Below the pieces are notes generated by a model, which did not search any database, was not told where the DNA came from, and was given only the letters and a program-made list of their open reading frames with translations. Positions 13,504 through 31,210 of a stretch of DNA of 64,000 bases are shown in pieces. The stretch comes from Halomonas organivorans. Lineage in GTDB: Bacteria > Pseudomonadota > Gammaproteobacteria > Pseudomonadales > Halomonadaceae. Each line of letters begins with the position of its first letter. Position 1 is the stretch's first letter. The stretch spans positions 62,001-126,000 of the forward strand of contig NZ_JACHXM010000008.1 of assembly GCF_014192055.1 (NCBI RefSeq), in the 5' to 3' direction. A program made the translations under genes and the position numbers.

Positions 13504-13950
13504 ATGTTGATGGCCCTGGGCATGTTCGTGTTCGAGACACGCAGCGTGCCGTATCAGCAACTGCAACGCCGCACCGAGTGGCGCCACCCGTCCCAGTCGC
13601 GCGTCGGCGAACGGCCGGCCTATCAGTTCGTTGGCGTGGGCAGCGACACCATCACCCTCTCGGGCACCCTGTACCCCGCGTTCACCGGCGGCCGGCCTAG
13701 CCTGGACGAGATCCGCGACATGGCCGACAAGGGCAAGGCCTGGCCGCTGGTCGAGGGCAGCGGCCGCCAGTACGGGCTGTTCGTGGTCACCGGCATCGAC
13801 GAAACCGCCAGCACCCTGTGCCGCGACGGCACGCCCGCTAAGATCGAGTTCTCGATGACCCTCGAGCACGTTGATGACCAGGCCGGCGCGGCCGCCCTGG
13901 GCGATATCACGCTCTACAGCCAGGCCGTGCTCCAGGGGGCCTACGCCTGA
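13504..13950 (+). CDS. U: Tail completion protein U
   Basis: This 148-residue protein matches P2 gpU (159), needed to finish the tail. Conserved parts are MLMALGMFVFETRSVPYQQLQRRTEWRH, the GVGSDTITLSGTLYP block, and GLFVVTGIDET. AGGAGA lies before the start. Its stop overlaps the region of the D start. Confidence 0.95.
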   Translation: MLMALGMFVFETRSVPYQQLQRRTEWRHPSQSRVGERPAYQFVGVGSDTITLSGTLYPAFTGGRPSLDEIRDMADKGKAWPLVEGSGRQYGLFVVTGIDETASTLCRDGTPAKIEFSMTLEHVDDQAGAAALGDITLYSQAVLQGAYA

Positions 13951-14957
13951 TGGCCATGCCCTATCATCGCCCCAGCTACCGGGTCACCCTGGCCGGCCAG
14001 GACATCACGCCCAAGCTCAACGGCCGTCTCCACTCGCTGCGCATCAAGGCGCAGCGCGACCAGGAGTCCGACCAGCTCGACATCGTGCTCACCGACCACG
14101 ACGGCGAGCTCGCCATTCCCCCCAGCGGCGCCCTGCTCAGCGTCGCCATCGGCTGGCAGGACGAGGGGCTGATCGATCGCGGCACCTTCCACGTCGACGA
14201 GGTGGAACACTCCGGCAGCCCCGACCGGCTCACCATCCGCGCCCGCGCCGCCGACATGCAGCAGATGCTGCCCGGCAAGCGCACCCAGAGCTGGCACGAT
14301 CCCACCCAGACGCTCGGCACCATCATCGGCGCCGTCGCCGGGCGCAACGGCTTGTCGCCCATCATCGGCGGCGACCTGGGGGCGATCCCCCTGCCCCATA
14401 TTGACCAGACCGACGAGAGCGACCTCAACTTCCTGACCCGCCTGGGCCGACGCTATGACGCCGTGGCCACCATCAAATCTGGGCGCCTGCTGTTCACCCC
14501 GGCCGGCGACGGCCGAGCCGCCAGCGGCGCGGCCCTGGGCGGCGTGGTCATCACCCGGCGTGACGGCGACCAGCACCGCTACAGCCGCACCTCACGCGAC
14601 GCCGAGAGCTATACCGGCGTGAAGGCCTACTGGAATGACCCGAGAGCGGCCGCCCGGCAGGAGGTCGTCGCAGGCGGCACGGGCAAACTCAAGGAGCTGC
14701 GCGCCGTGTTCGCCAACGAGGCCGACGCCATGGACGAAGCCGTCTCCGAGTGGCAGCGCATTCAGCGCCGCGAGGCCCTGTTCGAACTCACCATGGCCCA
14801 CGGCCGTGCCGACCTCATCGCCGAAACGCCCATCACCCTGGTGGGCTGGAAGCCCCAGATCGACGGCACCGACTGGCTGATTACCGACGTCGAGGACATC
14901 CTCGACGACAAGGGCTACATCACGCGGATTCGCTGCGAGGTGAAGGTGGGGGCGTGA
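13950..14957 (+). CDS. D: Tail protein D (late control gene D family)
   Basis: This 335-residue protein belongs to the gpD family, structurally like gp27/VgrG hubs; it forms the baseplate hub ring above the spike. Typical motifs are YRVTLAGQDITPKLNGRLHSL, the DQLDIVLTDHDG block and the C-terminal TPITLVGWKPQIDGTDWLITDVE. It is a little shorter than P2 D (387). A second copy of its last 50 residues follows immediately in another frame. Confidence 0.95.
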   Translation: MAMPYHRPSYRVTLAGQDITPKLNGRLHSLRIKAQRDQESDQLDIVLTDHDGELAIPPSGALLSVAIGWQDEGLIDRGTFHVDEVEHSGSPDRLTIRARAADMQQMLPGKRTQSWHDPTQTLGTIIGAVAGRNGLSPIIGGDLGAIPLPHIDQTDESDLNFLTRLGRRYDAVATIKSGRLLFTPAGDGRAASGAALGGVVITRRDGDQHRYSRTSRDAESYTGVKAYWNDPRAAARQEVVAGGTGKLKELRAVFANEADAMDEAVSEWQRIQRREALFELTMAHGRADLIAETPITLVGWKPQIDGTDWLITDVEDILDDKGYITRIRCEVKVGA

Positions 14958-15738: not shown

Positions 15739-16092
15739 TCACAACCCATACCGCCTCGCCTGGCTCACCACCACGCCCCGCAGATCCGACTGCCGGGCCC
15801 AGATCGACTCGCGGGGCCCGGCGGTAGGCATCAGGCGCATCCGCCCGCCGATCCGGTGGCTGCTGAACAGCCGCTGCTCGCCATCCAGCTCCACCACCAC
15901 CAGGTCGGCGTGCTGGGCGGGCTTCTGCTCGTCGACCACCAACAGGTCGCCTTCCATTAACGGACCGCCCACTCCGGCATCCTCGCTCACCTCCACCAGG
16001 TAGCAGGTGGGCTTGAAGCGCGAGAGGTCGTATCCCTCCAGCGCGGGATGGTCGATGCCCAGACACGCCGGGCCCAGGTAATTCACTCGCAT
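15739..16092 (-). CDS. S24-like protein lacking the catalytic Ser/Lys
   Basis: This 117-residue protein has the LexA/UmuD peptidase fold pattern (CYLVEVSEDAGVGGPLMEGD, then LLVVDEQKPAQHADLVVVELDGEQRLF). The active-site GDSM is replaced by EDAG at 38-41, and the Lys expected near residue 75 is Phe/Ser. It is therefore probably a pseudoprotease that could pair with UmuD or bind a partner. It is divergent from umuD across a 154-base gap holding a LexA box, so both may be SOS-controlled. Confidence 0.72.
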   Translation of the reverse strand: MRVNYLGPACLGIDHPALEGYDLSRFKPTCYLVEVSEDAGVGGPLMEGDLLVVDEQKPAQHADLVVVELDGEQRLFSSHRIGGRMRLMPTAGPRESIWARQSDLRGVVVSQARRYGL

Positions 16093-16207
16093 GTCGTCCC
16101 TGCCAATTCATGATCCTGCCACCAGCCGCACCACACCGGGCCCGGCCGCCTGCGTCACCTGGCCTTTGTTCATATTAGCGTTTGCCTAAGAGTGCGCCGA
16201 TGTCGAA

Positions 16208-16227
16208 TACTGTATAAACGAACAGTC
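16208..16227 (+). promoter_or_regulatory. LexA (SOS) box upstream of umuD
   Basis: TACTGTATAAACGAACAGTC contains CTGT-N8-ACAG and fits the gammaproteobacterial LexA consensus closely. It ends 19 bases before the umuD ATG. Confidence 0.88.
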
Positions 16228-16246
16228 TTTGACAAGAGGCACCGCC

Positions 16247-16687
16247 ATGCGCGATCCCGAGATCCACCATCCGCACCCGGCACCGCCATACCGCGCCCTG
16301 CCCCACCCACTGGCCACCATCCGCGCCGGCATCTCCGGCTTTCCCTCACCGGCAGAGGACTACGTCGGCCGCACGCTCGATCTCAACGAGCGGCTGGTGA
16401 AGCGCCCCGCGGCCACGTTCTTCATGACCGTCACCGGCGACAGCATGGTCGACTTCGGCATCCAGGACGGCGACACCGTGGTGGTGGACCGTTCCATCGA
16501 CGCTCGCCCAGGGCACATCGTCGTGGCCCTGGTCGACGGGGAAGTGATCGTGAAGCGCTACGAGACGATTGGTAAGCGGCCCTACCTGTGCTCCGGCAAC
16601 AGCCGCTATGCGCCGATCCCAGTGGCCGACCTGGACTGCCAGGTGTGGGGCGTGGTGCGCTCGGTCATCCACGAGTACGCCGTATGA
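16247..16687 (+). CDS. umuD: UmuD-like SOS mutagenesis protein
   Basis: This 146-residue protein is the accessory subunit of polymerase V, activated by RecA-stimulated self-cleavage. Ser66 (GDSM) and Lys103 (VKRY) form the catalytic dyad. The cleavage site equivalent to E. coli Cys24-Gly25 is Ser30-Gly31 ([12 protein letters not shown]), and the spacings 30-66-103 equal the E. coli 24-60-97. The ATG at 16247 has AGAGG upstream. It overlaps umuC by an ATGA and is controlled by the LexA box at 16208. Confidence 0.95.
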
Positions 16688-17961
16688 TCGGGCTCGTGGA
16701 CTGCAACAATTTCTACGTGAGCTGCGAGCGCGTCTTCCAGCCGCGGCTCGAGGGCGTGCCGGTGGGCGTGATGTCCAACAACGACGGCTGCGTGATCGCG
16801 CGCTCCAACGAGCTCAAGGCCCTGGGCGTCGAGATGGGCACCCCAGCCTTCGAGCTGCAGCAGTGGGTCAACCAGGGCCGCATCCACCTGCTCTCGTCCA
16901 ACTACGAGCTCTACGGCGACATGTCCGCCCGGGTGCGCGAGGTCCTCGAGGAGTTCTCCGCCGGCGTCGAGCCTTACTCAATCGATGAGATGTTCGTCAG
17001 GTTCGACGGCTTCGACACTGCCACCACCCAGGCCCTGGCCCGCACGCTCTATCGCAACGTGCGCCAGTTCACCGGCATCCCCGTCTGCGTGGGTGTGGCG
17101 CCCACCCGCACCCTCGCCAAGCTGGCCAACCGCGCCGCCAAGAAGCTGCCGGAGTACGGCGGCACCTGCGTATTGCACGCCGAGGGCGACGAGACTCGCC
17201 GCTTGCTCGAGCGCACCGCCCTGGGCGATGTCTGGGGCGTCGGCCGCCGGCTGGTCGAGCGGCTGGCCATCCAGGGCATCGGGACTGCCTGGGATCTCCG
17301 CCAGGCCGACCCCAAGACCATCCGCCGGCGCTTCTCCGTCACGCTCGAGCGCACCGTGCGCGAACTCCAGGGCACACCCTGCATCGAGCTCAACGACGCC
17401 GACCGCCCGCGCGATCGCATCATGACGTCGCGCTCCTTCGGTCGCCTCACCGGCGACCTGGGCGAGCTGCAGGAGGCCATCCGCCAGCACGCCCAACGCG
17501 GCGCCGAGAAGCTCCGCCAGCAGGACAGTCACGCCCGCGCCGTGCTCGTCTTCCTCAAGACCAACCGACACCGGCTGGACCTGGCTCAGTACTCGCCCAG
17601 CGCCGTTGTCGAACTGCCCGAGCCCACTGACGACAGCAGACTGATCCTGGCCGCCGCCCGCCAGTGCCTCGAGGCGATCTACCGCCGTGGGTACCGATTC
17701 ATGAAAGGCGGCGTGATGCTGCTCGACCTGGTGGATGCCAACCGCGAACAGCTCTCGCTGCTCGACACGCCCGAGCGGGCCGCCCAACGCGATCGTGATC
17801 ACAAGCTGATGGCCACCCTGGACAAGCTCAACGGTAAGATGGGCCGCGGCACCGTACGCCTGGGCATGCCAAGCAAGAATGCCGCCTGGCACCTGCGCTG
17901 CGCGCACCGCACACCGCGATACACTACTCAATGGAATGAACTCATCAATGCTAAAACATGA
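16684..17961 (+). CDS. umuC: UmuC-like Y-family DNA polymerase V catalytic subunit
   Basis: This 425-residue protein is an error-prone translesion polymerase. It shows [15 protein letters not shown] (first catalytic Asp), [19 protein letters not shown] (the paired acidic residues), and helix-hairpin-helix [18 protein letters not shown]. The C-terminal little finger and UmuC tail ([17 protein letters not shown]) are present, so it looks intact. Carriage by the prophage would add SOS mutagenesis capacity to the host. Confidence 0.96.
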
Positions 17962-18008: not shown

Positions 18009-18497
18009 GTGGCAGAAATTGACTTAACAGAGCCATCATGGGTTCAGGCAATTGGAAGCATAGCCGCCATCTTTGCCGCCTTCCTTATATCTTGGAGAGA
18101 TAGGCATCACGAAAAATCAGAAAAAATAAAAGGCGAAGAAAACTATCATAAATCAATAGTCGACATTGCCACTCTTGCCATAAAAGAAGCCAGATATATA
18201 GATCAAACAGTGCGCGGCGACTTGACATACCTGATCCACGAAGGAATAAACACCACAAGCCTAAAAAACCATTGCAACGCCTTATCCACCATCACCCTTG
18301 AGTCCTTAACCAAAAAAAACGCCTTTGCGCGACTTCACAAGTTCAGAGAAACAATAAACGGGATTGCATTCACAGGAGACCAAGCAAGCGAGAATGTCTC
18401 AACTGAAGGACTAGACCCCATGTATGAAGAAGCAGCCATGGATCAGGCAATCAGAGCAGAAAGAGAATACCGAGCACTTATGCAAGCACTGAAGTAA
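18009..18497 (+). CDS. Hypothetical membrane-anchored protein, AT-rich cargo
   Basis: This 162-residue protein starts at a GTG and has one N-terminal membrane segment (about residues 11-28, VQAIGSIAAIFAAFLISW) followed by a charged cytoplasmic helical domain (RDRHHEKSEKIKGEENYHKSI). I recognise no family. Base composition is much more AT-rich than umuC before it or the SRAP gene after it, so it was probably inserted separately. This topology, a single anchor with a helical soluble part, is common in phage-exclusion proteins, but that is only a suggestion. Confidence 0.7.
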   Translation: MAEIDLTEPSWVQAIGSIAAIFAAFLISWRDRHHEKSEKIKGEENYHKSIVDIATLAIKEARYIDQTVRGDLTYLIHEGINTTSLKNHCNALSTITLESLTKKNAFARLHKFRETINGIAFTGDQASENVSTEGLDPMYEEAAMDQAIRAEREYRALMQALK

Positions 18498-18502
18498 AAG
18501 CA

Positions 18503-19156
18503 CTAGCAGAATTGTATTAAACTGGCATCGTCGTTAGCGGAACGATTGACGCGAGTGCTGACGGGCCAATGGATTATCAGCTCAGCGGGTAGGTGGTGGA
18601 CCACCTGGCGGATCGTCTCGCGGTCCGTCAGGTGGGGATCGAGCCAGGGCTCCAGGCTCTCGTCGTCCAGGGCCAGCGGCATGCGCGAGTGGATCTCCGC
18701 AGCCACCCCGCGAGCCGGCTCAGTGAGGATGGCACAGCCCGGCTTGCCGTCCGGCCGCTCACTCCAGATGCCCGCCAGCCAGATCGGCTCGCGGTCCTCA
18801 CGGCACAGGAAGTGCGGCTGCTTCTTGCCGTCTACCGGTAGCCACTCGTACCAGCCGTCCGCCGGCACCAGGCAGCGATGATGGGCGAACGCCCCGCGAA
18901 AGTAGTTGGAGGTGGCTACCTTCTCGACGGTGGCGTTGATGGGCTCAGGCGCCTTGTCATTCGTCCAGTGCGGCCGGTAGCCCCACCACACCTCACCCAT
19001 CACCAGCGGCGCATCATCGCTGGGATGGCCCACCGCAGTGATCCAGGTACCCGGCGCCACGTTGTAGCGTGGCCTCAGCTCCCCTGGCTCCAGCGGCAAA
19101 CGCAGGGCCTGAGAGAGCTTCGGATAGGGGCTATAAAGAGCGAAGCGGCCGCACAT
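18503..19156 (-). CDS. SRAP-domain protein (HMCES/YedK family)
   Basis: This 217-residue protein covalently traps abasic sites in single-stranded DNA. The catalytic Cys2 (MCGRF), Asn32 (YNVAPG), Glu104 (GWYEW) and His156 (IHSRMP) are all present, and the length fits YedK (222). One usual motif, NARxE, is changed to NATVEKVATS at 74-83. It lies beside umuDC in the cargo block, giving a DNA-damage theme. SRAP genes are frequent on phages and may protect phage DNA. Confidence 0.93.
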   Translation of the reverse strand: MCGRFALYSPYPKLSQALRLPLEPGELRPRYNVAPGTWITAVGHPSDDAPLVMGEVWWGYRPHWTNDKAPEPINATVEKVATSNYFRGAFAHHRCLVPADGWYEWLPVDGKKQPHFLCREDREPIWLAGIWSERPDGKPGCAILTEPARGVAAEIHSRMPLALDDESLEPWLDPHLTDRETIRQVVHHLPAELIIHWPVSTRVNRSANDDASLIQFC

Positions 19157-19199
19157 AATTCATCGCTATTCACAATCACTGTGAAGGTAAGATTTATAG

Positions 19200-20234
19200 T
19201 TAACATACTCTATTTTTCAAGCATGCTCCCCAAGATGCCACTAGTTGCGAAATACTTAGCCATTCATCATCAACACCCTCAACAGTTCGCTCTGCCAGCT
19301 TATGTACAGAGCAACAATTCATGGCATCCAAAGAATGCCGAGACAAATCACTGCCTATACCACGACAGACCCAATCGTCTGCATCCTCACGAGCCTCAAC
19401 AACACCTTCCCAATAAACAGACCCACATTGATGATCTAAAGCAAGTGCATCATCTTTTCTTAAACCGCACTTATGATCAAAAAAAGGCCTACAGCCATGC
19501 CTCGCCACAATATTAAAATTGTCATAGTTGTTCTGAGAGGTTCTTAAAATAACTTCCTCAACCACGTCTAAAGGGATAATGTTCTCGACCTCACGAGAAT
19601 CAAGAATTCTTAAATAGCCGAAACCATCCGCTCCTCTTTCAAAACGATTGAACCTTTTTGCAGTGCCACCCAATTTACCAGAAGGATGAGATTTGTCACT
19701 ATCAACAATACAGAGAACTGGCTCATCTTCATTTAGATGCCTCACAAATTCATCATATGTGGTTGCTCCACCACCATGATGCGGATTGCACTTAACATCT
19801 TGAGAATCAAACAAGCCGGCTTTGACCAAAAAGACCTGACTCCCTTTTAAATACAATTGATAGTCAAAAACGTGCTCAACTATAATTTTAGCCTTTTGCC
19901 AAAAGGATGAGTCATTTAGCCAGCCATAGCCAACTCTCAAAAACCTACCATCCTCAACCTGTCTACACATCTTATCATCAAAATCAATTTCAACATGAAA
20001 CACAAAACTTTCATGTAAATACTTAGACTCTCTCACATAACTCTTAAGCTTATAAAGAGCTCGATAATGGTAGTCACTAAGCCCTTCTGTATCCAACAAC
20101 ATTTCTACTAAAGCACGCTGCATCCACAATATATGCTTACCTTCACCGAAAGCATTAATTGCATGTTCTATAACCCTAAGCTTATCACTTCTATCATCAT
20201 CAAGGTTAGGAATTCCGGGGATTCTTACAATCAT
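19200..20234 (-). CDS. TOPRIM-like protein, partner of the DUF3696 ATPase
   Basis: This 344-residue protein has a possible TOPRIM core: IIVEHVFDYQLYLKG at 117-131 (like the VEGxxDxxxY entry strand), a GGG at 154-156, the DxD in CIVDSDKSHPSG at 178-180, and REVENIIP at 214-221. About 115 residues precede it and about 120 follow, rich in Cys and His (for example HGCRPFFDHKCGL). This would make it a nuclease effector, as in OLD, Gabija or PARIS systems, but the assignment is from pattern only. It starts 16 bases after the ATPase stop, with AGAGG upstream. It is AT-rich and probably acquired. Confidence 0.7.
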   Translation of the reverse strand: MIVRIPGIPNLDDDRSDKLRVIEHAINAFGEGKHILWMQRALVEMLLDTEGLSDYHYRALYKLKSYVRESKYLHESFVFHVEIDFDDKMCRQVEDGRFLRVGYGWLNDSSFWQKAKIIVEHVFDYQLYLKGSQVFLVKAGLFDSQDVKCNPHHGGGATTYDEFVRHLNEDEPVLCIVDSDKSHPSGKLGGTAKRFNRFERGADGFGYLRILDSREVENIIPLDVVEEVILRTSQNNYDNFNIVARHGCRPFFDHKCGLRKDDALALDHQCGSVYWEGVVEAREDADDWVCRGIGSDLSRHSLDAMNCCSVHKLAERTVEGVDDEWLSISQLVASWGACLKNRVC

Positions 20235-20250
20235 GAAAACCTCTAAACCC

Positions 20251-21840
20251 TCACGCTGATAGGAAGCCGGCAGGCCAGTTCATTAAATAGCCCTCCGCGT
20301 CATATCCTGAGCGAACTACCTTAGTTGAGCCGCCAACCTCTTTATCGAAGATAGTGATATTTACATCATCGTCACTAATCAACCCATTACTGACAGAATC
20401 CCCAAAAGCATCGATAATGTGTTTGCTGTGTGTTTCAAACAAAAACTTTATTTTCTTTTCACCCCCCGAAGCAGAAAGCTTTGCAATTGCATGTGCAAAT
20501 CGGTATTGCAAAAGTGGATGCAAATGTAACTCCGGTTGCTCTATAACGATAACTGATTGGGGGTGATTTCTAGAGAAACCATATCCGACTCTATCAACAA
20601 TATCCTCTTTCTCAAGCCAGACAGAAACCACAACCGGCAATATCTGAGAGTACCCAAACCCCATATCGCTAATATTGAAGGGCGTCTCGCTCCCCTCCTC
20701 TTTGATTAGCAACGCATAATGTGACCCTCCTCCTGAAAGCTGCAGTGAAAACCCAAAACTCTCTTCCATCCAGAGCTTCAACCTGTATTTCTGCGACTCA
20801 GTCAATGAATTAATAACCATTGGGAGATTTGCCCCCAAATGATCGATCTCATTGACCTGCAGATCTTGATATCTATAAAATCTTTCCGCAGAAGCACGAA
20901 CAGGCCCAAGGTACCTAACGCCTAAAAAAAACTCCCTAAGTGCCGAATTGGCAGAGTCCACAATCTTTTGGAAATGCATGCAAAAACTATAAAGGTAAGA
21001 TATATCTCTCACATACTCCTCTTTTCCTACCAGGTTTTTTAAAAACTGCTTGTCAGAAGAAAAGCTTTTTAGCAAATAACTGTAAACATCTTCTCTGCCG
21101 CCAACTCTCACCTTGGAGACAACTCCTGCAACAGTTGACTCTTTTTTTGACTTGTGATGGTAATCCAGCAAAAATCTTTGAAACTTATGACGAACTTCAG
21201 GGAGATTTCTAGTAGGAAGAAGCTTAAACTTATTGCTTTTCATTGCATCTGCTGAAAGCACCCTAGGAAAAAAAATAGAATTGAGAGCTCTATACTCTTC
21301 TTTAAAACTAACTTCATAGCCATGCTTGACATTGAAGGCCTTAAAGCCACAAACATCGAAACCTGAGAACCTCAACTCTACCTTGCAGTCACCTGAACTC
21401 ACCCCCATATAACTAGCAGAGGTTATATTGCCGTGATTTACAACACCAAGACTAAACTGAAGAGGGAGAGAAACAAGATCCCTATCCAAGTCGAAGTCCA
21501 TAAAAACGCTGCTAGCATAATCGTAATAATCAGTTACCACCTCTTTCTCTAAATCAACATCCAGGTCAAAATCAAAAAATATCTCTTTTTCCCCGTCTGG
21601 AATATTGCAATTTACAGAAGAGCTAAAATCTCCAAAATCAACATAATTTCCAAACCATAAAACCGGCCCCTTGGTCTTTTCCTCCATTGATTGTCTCAAC
21701 AGCGGAAATACTCGAGCAAAAGTGCTTTTCCCTGAGCTGTTTTTACCAACCAAAATATTAATATCCTTGATTGGAACAAAATCTTTTTCAGAACAAAAGC
21801 TACGCAAATTCCTTACTTTAATAGCATTTACGCTCGCCAA
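20251..21840 (-). CDS. AAA/ABC-type ATPase of the DUF3696 family, putative defence sensor
   Basis: This 529-residue SMC-like ATPase has Walker A GKNSSGKS at 32-39, a signature-like SDMGFGYSQILP, a Walker B variant VIVIEQPELHLHP (Glu434), the ETHSKH switch at 469-474, and the GYLMNWPAGFL ending typical of DUF3696. Such overcoming-lysogenisation-defect-like ATPases act as sensors in several anti-phage systems with a nuclease partner. It begins 17 bases after the stop of the repressor gene on the same strand, so it is expressed with the repressor in the lysogen. The coding region is strongly AT-rich against its neighbours. Confidence 0.85.
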   Translation of the reverse strand: MASVNAIKVRNLRSFCSEKDFVPIKDINILVGKNSSGKSTFARVFPLLRQSMEEKTKGPVLWFGNYVDFGDFSSSVNCNIPDGEKEIFFDFDLDVDLEKEVVTDYYDYASSVFMDFDLDRDLVSLPLQFSLGVVNHGNITSASYMGVSSGDCKVELRFSGFDVCGFKAFNVKHGYEVSFKEEYRALNSIFFPRVLSADAMKSNKFKLLPTRNLPEVRHKFQRFLLDYHHKSKKESTVAGVVSKVRVGGREDVYSYLLKSFSSDKQFLKNLVGKEEYVRDISYLYSFCMHFQKIVDSANSALREFFLGVRYLGPVRASAERFYRYQDLQVNEIDHLGANLPMVINSLTESQKYRLKLWMEESFGFSLQLSGGGSHYALLIKEEGSETPFNISDMGFGYSQILPVVVSVWLEKEDIVDRVGYGFSRNHPQSVIVIEQPELHLHPLLQYRFAHAIAKLSASGGEKKIKFLFETHSKHIIDAFGDSVSNGLISDDDVNITIFDKEVGGSTKVVRSGYDAEGYLMNWPAGFLSA

Positions 21841-21857: not shown

Positions 21858-22529
21858 TTAGGTTATACGCCCAATCCGAATCTCACACCGCCCCAGGATC
21901 TCCACGTCCTTCATATCCTGCGGCTTGATCAATTCCTTCTCATAACGCGGGTTGTCGCTGATCAGCAGCCAGGCGCCGCCGGCGACGCGCTGCACGCGCT
22001 TGATGCGCCGCTCGCCGTGCACGAGCAGCAAGAACACGCCTTCCGGGTGAGGATCGCGGCTGCTGCGATCCACCAGCACCCAGTCGCCGTCGGCCAGCGT
22101 GCCGTCCATCGAGTCGCCGCGAACCTTGATACCCACCACCTGGGCCGGGTCGAGGCCCTGGGCGGCGAGCTGCTCGGTGGGGAAGTACATCGTGGACTCG
22201 ACCTCTTCCCGCTCGAGCGAGCGGCCATCACCAGCCGCGGCCTCGATGTCGTACATGGCCACCGGTGATAGGGCTTCACTCCCCGTGGTAAACGATAAGG
22301 AGCCATCACCTAATGTGGCGTGGCTCTCATCTGTTCGCCTTCCCGTGAGCACGTAATGGGTGTCAACACCAGCCTCGTCTAACGCCGTGAGGTAGGCCGC
22401 ATTGGGGCTACGAGCGTCCTTTTCGTAGTTGATCTGGGACATTTTCCCCACACCACCAAGGACGGCGAGCTCTGTCTGGCTCATGCCCAGACGCTCGCGC
22501 TCCTCTCGTAACCTGCTCCCTGTGGTCAT
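21858..22529 (-). CDS. Prophage repressor, XRE HTH plus S24 self-cleaving domain
   Basis: This 223-residue cI-like repressor keeps the prophage silent. An XRE helix-turn-helix covers about 5-60 (RLREERERLGMSQTELAVLG). A cleavage site Ala99-Gly100 (EAAAGDG) precedes an S24 peptidase with Ser140 (GDSM) and Lys177 (IKRV). RecA-stimulated cleavage would make the prophage SOS-inducible; P2's own C repressor is about 99 residues and not cleavable. The ATG at 22529 fits the HTH start and has AAGG upstream. The defence-like pair lies directly downstream. Confidence 0.93.
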   Translation of the reverse strand: MTTGSRLREERERLGMSQTELAVLGGVGKMSQINYEKDARSPNAAYLTALDEAGVDTHYVLTGRRTDESHATLGDGSLSFTTGSEALSPVAMYDIEAAAGDGRSLEREEVESTMYFPTEQLAAQGLDPAQVVGIKVRGDSMDGTLADGDWVLVDRSSRDPHPEGVFLLLVHGERRIKRVQRVAGGAWLLISDNPRYEKELIKPQDMKDVEILGRCEIRIGRIT

Positions 22530-31192: not shown

Positions 31193-31210
31193 ACTGTAAA
31201 TATGAACAGT
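31193..31210 (+). promoter_or_regulatory. LexA-like box between int and dusA
   Basis: ACTGTAAATATGAACAGT contains CTGT-N8-ACAG with an AT-rich centre, a good LexA site. It is 83 bases upstream of the integrase start on one side and 32 bases upstream of the dusA ATG at 31242 on the other. Confidence 0.7.

Follow-up and report, generated by a model that had tools for sequence, protein, structure and literature searches.

The closest described counterparts of psp, the subject of this report, are proteins of the SOS response and of prophage induction. The gene lies in a P2-like prophage of Halomonas organivorans, within the 64,000-nucleotide stretch that was analysed and is referred to below as the window (NCBI RefSeq assembly GCF_014192055.1, contig NZ_JACHXM010000008.1, positions 62,001–126,000). 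It encodes an S24 domain that has lost its catalytic residues, and among related prophages it accompanies repressors that carry an S24 domain themselves. Coliphage 186 Tum, a LexA-controlled antirepressor, is an SOS-expressed prophage regulator of repressor activity, as is proposed here for psp; induction of phage 186 is not known to proceed through self-cleavage of its repressor, whereas the CI repressor of the window prophage keeps its protease residues. HumD (NF051876), which originates from phage P1, is like psp a phage-borne UmuD'-like protein, but psp scores only 12.8 bits against this family, for which the cut-off is 120. UmuD/UmuD', the Escherichia coli Pol V subunit (PDB codes 1umu, 1ay9 and 8gmt), resembles psp as its best profile match, in fold, in the absence of a helix-turn-helix (HTH) domain and in its SOS-type control, and psp has the size of UmuD'. 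However, psp has no catalytic serine or lysine, falls far under the UmuD family cut-off and is not tied to umuC.

The engineered RecA probe mCI, an HTH-less and catalytically dead fragment of lambda CI, has the make-up of psp, but it is man-made and monomeric by design, whereas psp is natural, UmuD-like and preceded by a LexA box; the sections of PMC6363387 used here report that mCI, which binds RecA filaments at ~36 nM, postpones the SOS response of cells in a dose-dependent manner. The gp7 protein of phage GIL01 is a small phage protein at the SOS/induction switch, as is proposed for psp; according to part of PMC9700832 it binds LexA, impairs RecA-stimulated LexA self-cleavage and lowers the induction of a co-resident prophage. 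In Acinetobacter, ddrR is a small corepressor gene that, like psp, stands divergent from a UmuD-type gene (umuDAb) at one shared damage-responsive operator; DdrR is described in an excerpt of PMC7273328 as unique to Acinetobacter, in contrast to psp, a UmuD/LexA-fold pseudoprotease of prophages. No paper on a protein of the psp type was found in a library of open-licence papers, as judged by titles and the beginnings of abstracts.

Fold, catalytic residues and family of the psp protein

The sole Pfam match of psp at an E-value of up to 1 is Peptidase_S24 (PF00717), which spans residues 27–89 and scores just over the cut-off (23.9 versus 23.3 bits). No N-terminal DNA-binding domain was found by Pfam at the same E-value limit, and only 26 residues precede the S24 match. 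A profile search of the PDB gave UmuD/UmuD' as the best match (E 2.5e-9), and the UmuD-like PHROG family was matched with an E-value of 5.7e-9. The score against the NCBIfam UmuD family (NF007621) is 25.8 bits, with a cut-off of 110. The structural model, computed with 33 relatives as input, has a predicted local distance difference test score (pLDDT) of 84.4 and a predicted template modelling score (pTM) of 0.80, and S24 structures (UmuD, LexA and lambda CI domains) rank first for it in both fold comparisons. The fold comparison does not assign psp to UmuD, LexA or CI, with Z-scores of 10.9 (a LexA domain), 10.8 (the domain of lambda CI) and 9.5 (UmuD'); the pairwise sequence scores are about equal (64 with the window CI and 63 with the window UmuD). 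The matches in the PDB include UmuD and lambda CI on RecA filaments (8gmt and 8gmu), which speaks for the fold and not for RecA binding. An earlier reading of the window from its sequence only (the sequence-only reading) had described a 117-residue protein of UmuD/LexA fold, which is borne out by the Pfam match, the PDB profile search and the model.

The catalytic residues are lost. SEDA stands in place of the GDSM motif, such that the catalytic serine is replaced by alanine, and the catalytic lysine is replaced by phenylalanine (F76). The sequence-only reading had correctly noticed EDAG instead of GDSM and the missing lysine, and the columns of the relatives agree. Among 51 non-redundant relatives, the serine column contains 48 Ala, two Val and one Ser, and the lysine column 48 Phe and three Tyr. 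In a larger alignment of 131 rows (two sets that were not deduplicated against each other), the serine column contains 125 Ala, five Val and one Ser, and lysine or arginine never occurs in the lysine column; the one member with the serine (L024) is also without the lysine. This loss of the dyad across the family supports the earlier suggestion of a pseudoprotease. Met1, Arg2, Tyr5, Leu6, Gly7 and Pro8 are invariant in the 51 non-redundant members, and with the most distant members included (L240, L241 and L245) the columns that stay invariant are Tyr5, Pro8, Glu47, Asp49, Leu51, Glu55, Val108 and Arg113. The N-terminus can be compared with what is presumably the cleavage-site segment of LexA, based on the range of the fold alignment and the LexA sequence, a lead that was given no weight. 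Variants of ~220 residues with a C-terminal extension of ~100 residues are found in L119, L256, L280 and L283; the extension of L119, the one tested, gave no confident Pfam match.

Both the sequence profile and the fold place psp in the S24 superfamily by descent. It lacks the Ser-Lys dyad of an active self-cleaving S24 peptidase and the N-terminal DNA-binding domain of a LexA/CI repressor. By descent, psp is an S24/UmuD-type domain; by function it is neither an S24 peptidase nor UmuD, HumD or, since no HTH was found, a repressor.

Searches recovered 37 psp loci from contigs of genomes and another 37 from those of viruses, and the titles of psp-bearing records name Halomonas, Vreelandella, Chromohalobacter, Billgrantia and Onishia. 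Of 275 genomes of the same family, in each of which the best 16 candidates were scored, 93 have a psp match at an E-value of up to 1e-6, including 78 at 1e-20 or better (counted from the listing); the rest consist of weak S24 matches and of partial or broken ones. In a set of 369 genomes across the class, only weak S24 matches were found outside the Halomonadaceae, the best with an E-value of 2.3e-9 for a narrow profile and 1.3e-13 for a wide one; those listed are mostly in open frames of 170–280 residues, with a few in short frames. Nine phage records have any match at an E-value of up to 1, and the two full-length ones (53–56% identity) are annotated as 'SOS response' and 'repressor LexA'. 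The median ratio of nonsynonymous to synonymous substitution rates of psp is 0.088, with a maximum of 0.275 (188 non-independent pairs, 80–97% alike). These comparisons show psp to be a conserved gene family of the P2-like prophages of Halomonadaceae, evolving under purifying selection.

Three side observations concern the records themselves. A Salmonella phage 'S24 family peptidase', encoded by an 86-codon gene near an integrase, is a weak match (E 3e-3). Record OR820920.1 (L075), named Bacillus pumilus phage vB_BpuM-ZY1, has a P2-like gene set, a 56% identical psp with a DNA polymerase gene divergent from it, and the gene order of the Halomonas phages, and its host label looks doubtful. In the phage-sized contig G055:C17 (39781 bases, holding L006 by position), psp and the late control gene D are at opposite ends, as if the phage genome were circular or excised in the assembly.

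The LexA box and the divergent umuDC genes

psp and umuD are divergent, and their start codons (ATG at 16092 and 16247) leave exactly 154 bases. A LexA-type box in this interval (Table 1) stands closer to umuD (19 bases from its ATG) than to psp (115 bases from its ATG). In the whole window, CTGT-N8-ACAG is matched twice with 0.53 matches expected, a modest excess, and no site in the window is within three mismatches of the full 20-base LexA consensus; the box is secure because comparison across loci supports it. A strict LexA-like box, defined as CTG-N10-CAG with at least 13 of 20 consensus positions and at most 260 bases upstream of psp, was found in 50 of 81 psp upstream regions, compared to 0.25% of mononucleotide shuffles, and in 51 after some psp starts were re-picked (e.g. 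L226, L266, L127 and L273). A near box is present in four of 28 psp without a strict box, compared to 0.86% of shuffles. Seven boxes are just 14–17 bases from the psp start (L241, L252, L253, L254, L255, L271 and L274). An intact umuD or umuC is lacking in 30 of 48 boxed prophages, and the box can be ascribed to psp on these sequence comparisons because it is kept also where nothing divergent stands. With a predicted LexA site at its promoter that is conserved in relatives, psp has the mark of an SOS gene. The coordinates and the retained box therefore confirm the divergent arrangement claimed in the sequence-only reading, with a LexA box in 154 bases, and make damage regulation of psp very probable.

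Putative promoter elements of psp straddle the box. On the psp strand, the four bases immediately 5' of the box have the consensus TTGT over 51 aligned boxes, each base being present in more than half of them. Between the box and the psp start is a motif, TTAGGCAAACGCTAAT, whose core AGGCAAACGCTAAT is also found upstream of psp in L002 and in the umuC-type loci L018 and L052, in the latter two with flanking GCGAC/GTCGC arms. This motif was considered as a CI operator and rejected, since it occurs once in the window and was not seen at the CI promoter. The second CTGT-N8-ACAG site of the window (31194–31209) is upstream of an open reading frame at ~31242 that resembles dusA by sight; dusA is a common prophage attachment gene.

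Table 1. Coordinates of psp and associated features in the window.
Feature	Positions	Strand	Remarks
psp (HTH-less, catalytically dead S24 protein of UmuD/LexA fold, 117 aa)	15739..16092	-	Profile, model, alignments
umuD, optional cargo	16247..16687	+	Ser/Lys intact; keeps GDSM and Lys
umuC with DUF4113 tail, optional cargo	16684..17961	+	
Prophage repressor CI (HTH and S24 with GDSM and Lys)	21858..22529	-	Feature co-occurring with psp
Late control D protein	13950..14957	+	Survey anchor
LexA-type box between psp and umuD	16208..16227	.	TACTGTATAAACGAACAGTC on + strand
Promoter-like elements on psp strand	16207..16235	-	TTGTCA (16235-16230), 17 bases, CAGTAT (16212-16207)
TTAGGCAAACGCTAAT motif, between box and psp start	16174..16189	-	Core shared by the psp upstream regions of several umuDC- and umuC-type relatives

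The umuD and umuC genes of the window overlap by four bases. In the first 74 loci, psp faces umuD-umuC, faces umuC alone, or faces neither or only a umuC tail. umuDC content was counted in 75 psp prophages that have an S24-type repressor and were deduplicated by D, within the D-to-CI stretch and on the strand that does not carry psp. umuD is present in 15 of these, full-length umuC in 19 and only umuC pieces in eight, while 46 have neither gene. The genetic link to umuC that marks a UmuD-type protein is thus not seen for psp. Furthermore, psp is a full-length open frame where umuC has decayed to a tail (L026, L057, L060 and L070) or is split (G207, G223 and G232). The umuC C-terminal tail, all that remains in some relatives, is the UmuD'-binding region according to PMC6511836. 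Taken together, the gene contents indicate that psp does not depend on umuDC.

These counts bear on whether psp is a UmuD'-like partner, either dimerizing with UmuD or acting as a UmuD'-like subunit or inhibitor of UmuC, and so tuning mutagenesis. UmuD/UmuD' are the best profile matches of psp, its 117 residues are near the 108–116 residues of UmuD' chains, and in one lineage (six of the 75, boxed prophages) psp faces umuC without umuD; in the Pol V models of PMC11791011, the UmuC tail touches the arm of UmuD'. However, the 46 prophages without either gene, the intact psp beside a split or tail-only umuC, the low UmuD family score and the association with CI type (see below) all argue against a UmuD partner, which has only a slim chance of being right. 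It is unlikely as the main role because psp follows the CI type and persists without umuDC. The mixed dimers with the neighbouring UmuD suggested by the sequence-only reading accordingly lost ground as the main role, given the prophages without umuD, the decaying umuC genes and the box that persists without a divergent gene. Partnership with umuC only, as a UmuD'-like subunit, was prompted by the umuC-facing lineage and was set aside since psp persists without umuC too. A host-encoded UmuD or UmuC could be the partner of psp. Among 23 chosen psp genomes, a umuD that passes the family cut-off occurs in 22, with prophage copies counted, and in at least one (G010) the sole umuD is the prophage's own; all 23 have a match to the umuC family when partial matches resembling DNA polymerase IV are counted, and none has one over that family's high cut-off.

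Two further features of these genes were noted. All nine aligned UmuD have Ser-Gly (AG[IL]SGFPSPA) where the E. coli UmuD cleavage site, Cys-Gly, falls. In L018, L052 and similar loci, umuC is directly divergent from psp and the locus has no umuD.

Association of psp with the repressor type

The repressor types were surveyed from D, such that the loci were not chosen by psp. The set of 186 D loci consists of 80 viral contigs, 46 more and 60 chosen genome regions, which are not a random sample (13 D places without a nearby psp match and 47 with one); the genome places that were not fetched have D at contig edges or, for some further ones, psp nearby. A duplicate filter at 97% D identity reduced the set to 140, dropping 46 loci (19 S24, seven HTH-only and 20 untyped) and merging the HTH-only L123 and L141 into S24 rows. 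Of the 140 prophages, 24 (six with psp) are untyped and are outside the comparison. The HTH-only class rests on an HTH profile built from 13 S24-type and four HTH-only repressors.

psp was found in 75 of 80 prophages with an S24-type repressor and in none of 36 with an HTH-only repressor (Fisher p 6e-25, uncorrected for kinship). The proportions are similar before the D filter (94/99 versus 0/43) and when D is at least 54% identical to that of the window (51/54 versus 0/6). Rereading of the five exceptions raised the first count to 77 of 80: L240 and L245, scored as S24 without psp, hold divergent psp genes on the CI strand, that of L245 under an 18/20 LexA box. As for the others, the CI of L297 is truncated, and the psp match found in G247, the genome of L297, contains stop codons; D of L246 is only partial; and in L236 psp was looked for and not found. 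Closely related prophages differ in the same manner. D of L123 and L141 (HTH-only, no psp and no box) is 97.5–97.8% identical to that of L135 and L126 (S24, psp), and D of L194 (HTH-only, no psp) is 95.7% identical to that of L198 (S24, psp). The HTH of L123 and L141 is very like that of the L016 CI, with the S24 domain absent and a different C-terminus in its place.

On a tree of D from 112 prophages, the repressor type changes six times and psp eight times. In 200 pairings, psp changes in the same way as the repressor type in 4.8 of six independent pairs on average and never in the opposite way (median sign-test p 0.0625). For this first test, L240 and L245 had been entered as lacking psp. 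With these two corrected and L123 and L141 added, there are nine changes each, and 5.9 of seven pairs change the same way and none the opposite way (median p 0.031, range to 0.0625); this correction was made after the first result was known. As far as these comparisons reach, psp goes with the S24 domain of the repressor and not with its HTH or with umuDC. The suggestion of the sequence-only reading that psp competes with a self-cleaving repressor and tunes induction fits this near-perfect co-occurrence.

The S24-type repressors appear equipped for self-cleavage, with the serine and lysine kept in 77 of 80 and the other three broken or cut off. An alignment of 13 CI shows a strongly conserved S24 domain and widely differing HTHs, as if immunity specificity were swapped by recombination at the CI domain border. 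The CI of the window, L016, L017, L069 and L072 in particular combine very different HTHs with a strongly conserved S24 domain, while L123 and L141 are the converse, with the same kind of HTH and another C-terminus.

These features suggest an antirepressor as one explanation, in which psp made during the SOS response would join the S24 domain of CI in mixed dimers or oligomers, take CI off its operators and promote induction. LexA-controlled antirepressors act in this way in other temperate phages. psp tracks the C-terminal domain of CI and not its HTH, that domain is conserved in the 13 aligned CI despite the differing HTHs, psp resembles the CI and the UmuD of the window to about the same degree, and a LexA box is upstream of psp. 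However, since CI keeps its self-cleavage apparatus, an antirepressor is not needed for induction. Additionally, the 27 of 75 psp without a box are on the same strand as CI and close behind it (median 1.0 kb to CI versus 4.0 kb for boxed psp, Mann-Whitney p 2e-8) and may be transcribed together with it; if psp is thus made in lysogeny, an antirepressor would undermine repression. We consider this explanation unlikely, if still the chief competitor of the role favoured below.

In the window, CI is 5.8 kb away from psp with cargo in between. The CI-to-D stretch is a cargo hotspot (18009–21840 in the window; also near psp in L002, L025, L067, L071 and L076). The window cargo comprises an SOS-associated SRAP protein together with an ATPase pair for which PADLOC gives NsnB/PDC-M55-type matches. 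In several relatives, DNA methyltransferase-like proteins (identified by sight) are near psp in place of umuDC, and in L076 a cytosine methyltransferase and a restriction endonuclease are annotated between psp and D.

A possible role at the cleavage step

The role that we favour, tentatively and at somewhat less than even odds, is that of an SOS-induced dead decoy of the repressor switch, which would damp the RecA-dependent cleavage of CI and LexA. A RecA-filament decoy is the first choice among the readings because psp has the make-up of mCI. Following DNA damage, psp would be made from its own LexA box in most members. It would then fill the groove of the RecA filament on single-stranded DNA, where CI, LexA and UmuD sit for cleavage, in the manner of mCI. 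Being itself uncleavable and without a DNA-binding domain, psp would slow the cleavage of CI, and of LexA. As a negative feedback it would increase the damage needed to induce the prophage, such that the lysogen would first attempt repair, in the window by means of the UmuDC and the SRAP protein that the prophage itself encodes. Binding of psp to the RecA filament is suggested by fold and precedent, and we infer from the same analogies that it may act on the cleavage step.

Alternatively, psp could bind CI or LexA directly and hold a non-cleavable form or improve operator binding, as in gp7-LexA or DdrR-UmuDAb. The genetic logic would be the same as for damping at the filament, and the precedents fit, as ddrR is likewise divergent from umuDAb at its operator (the excerpt of PMC7273328) and gp7 impairs LexA cleavage (the part of PMC9700832). 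However, a mixed dimer with one HTH is expected to bind operators less well, and direct protection seems to us improbable.

Several points weigh against the filament decoy. About one third of psp have no recognizable LexA box, and since these are nearer CI, members differ in when psp is expressed. After correction for the tree, six or seven pairs carry the association, and if the stretch from D to CI is exchanged as one block, part of the association could arise without a functional tie. In vitro, mCI delayed LexA cleavage without abolishing it, as stated in the consulted sections of PMC6363387.

More broadly, prophages with self-cleaving repressors may carry dedicated natural dominant-negative S24 decoys that set the induction threshold by competition for the RecA filament. 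Such decoys would stay with the S24 domain of the repressor while HTH, umuDC and defence cargo exchange freely, and would damp the host SOS response and other prophages as well. This generalization is more doubtful than the role of psp itself, yet conceivable. If true, self-cleavage of the repressor would not be the whole SOS switch, as its sensitivity would be set by another, catalytically dead version of that fold. psp also suggests that short, dead S24 genes under LexA boxes may be found beside other cleavable phage repressors.

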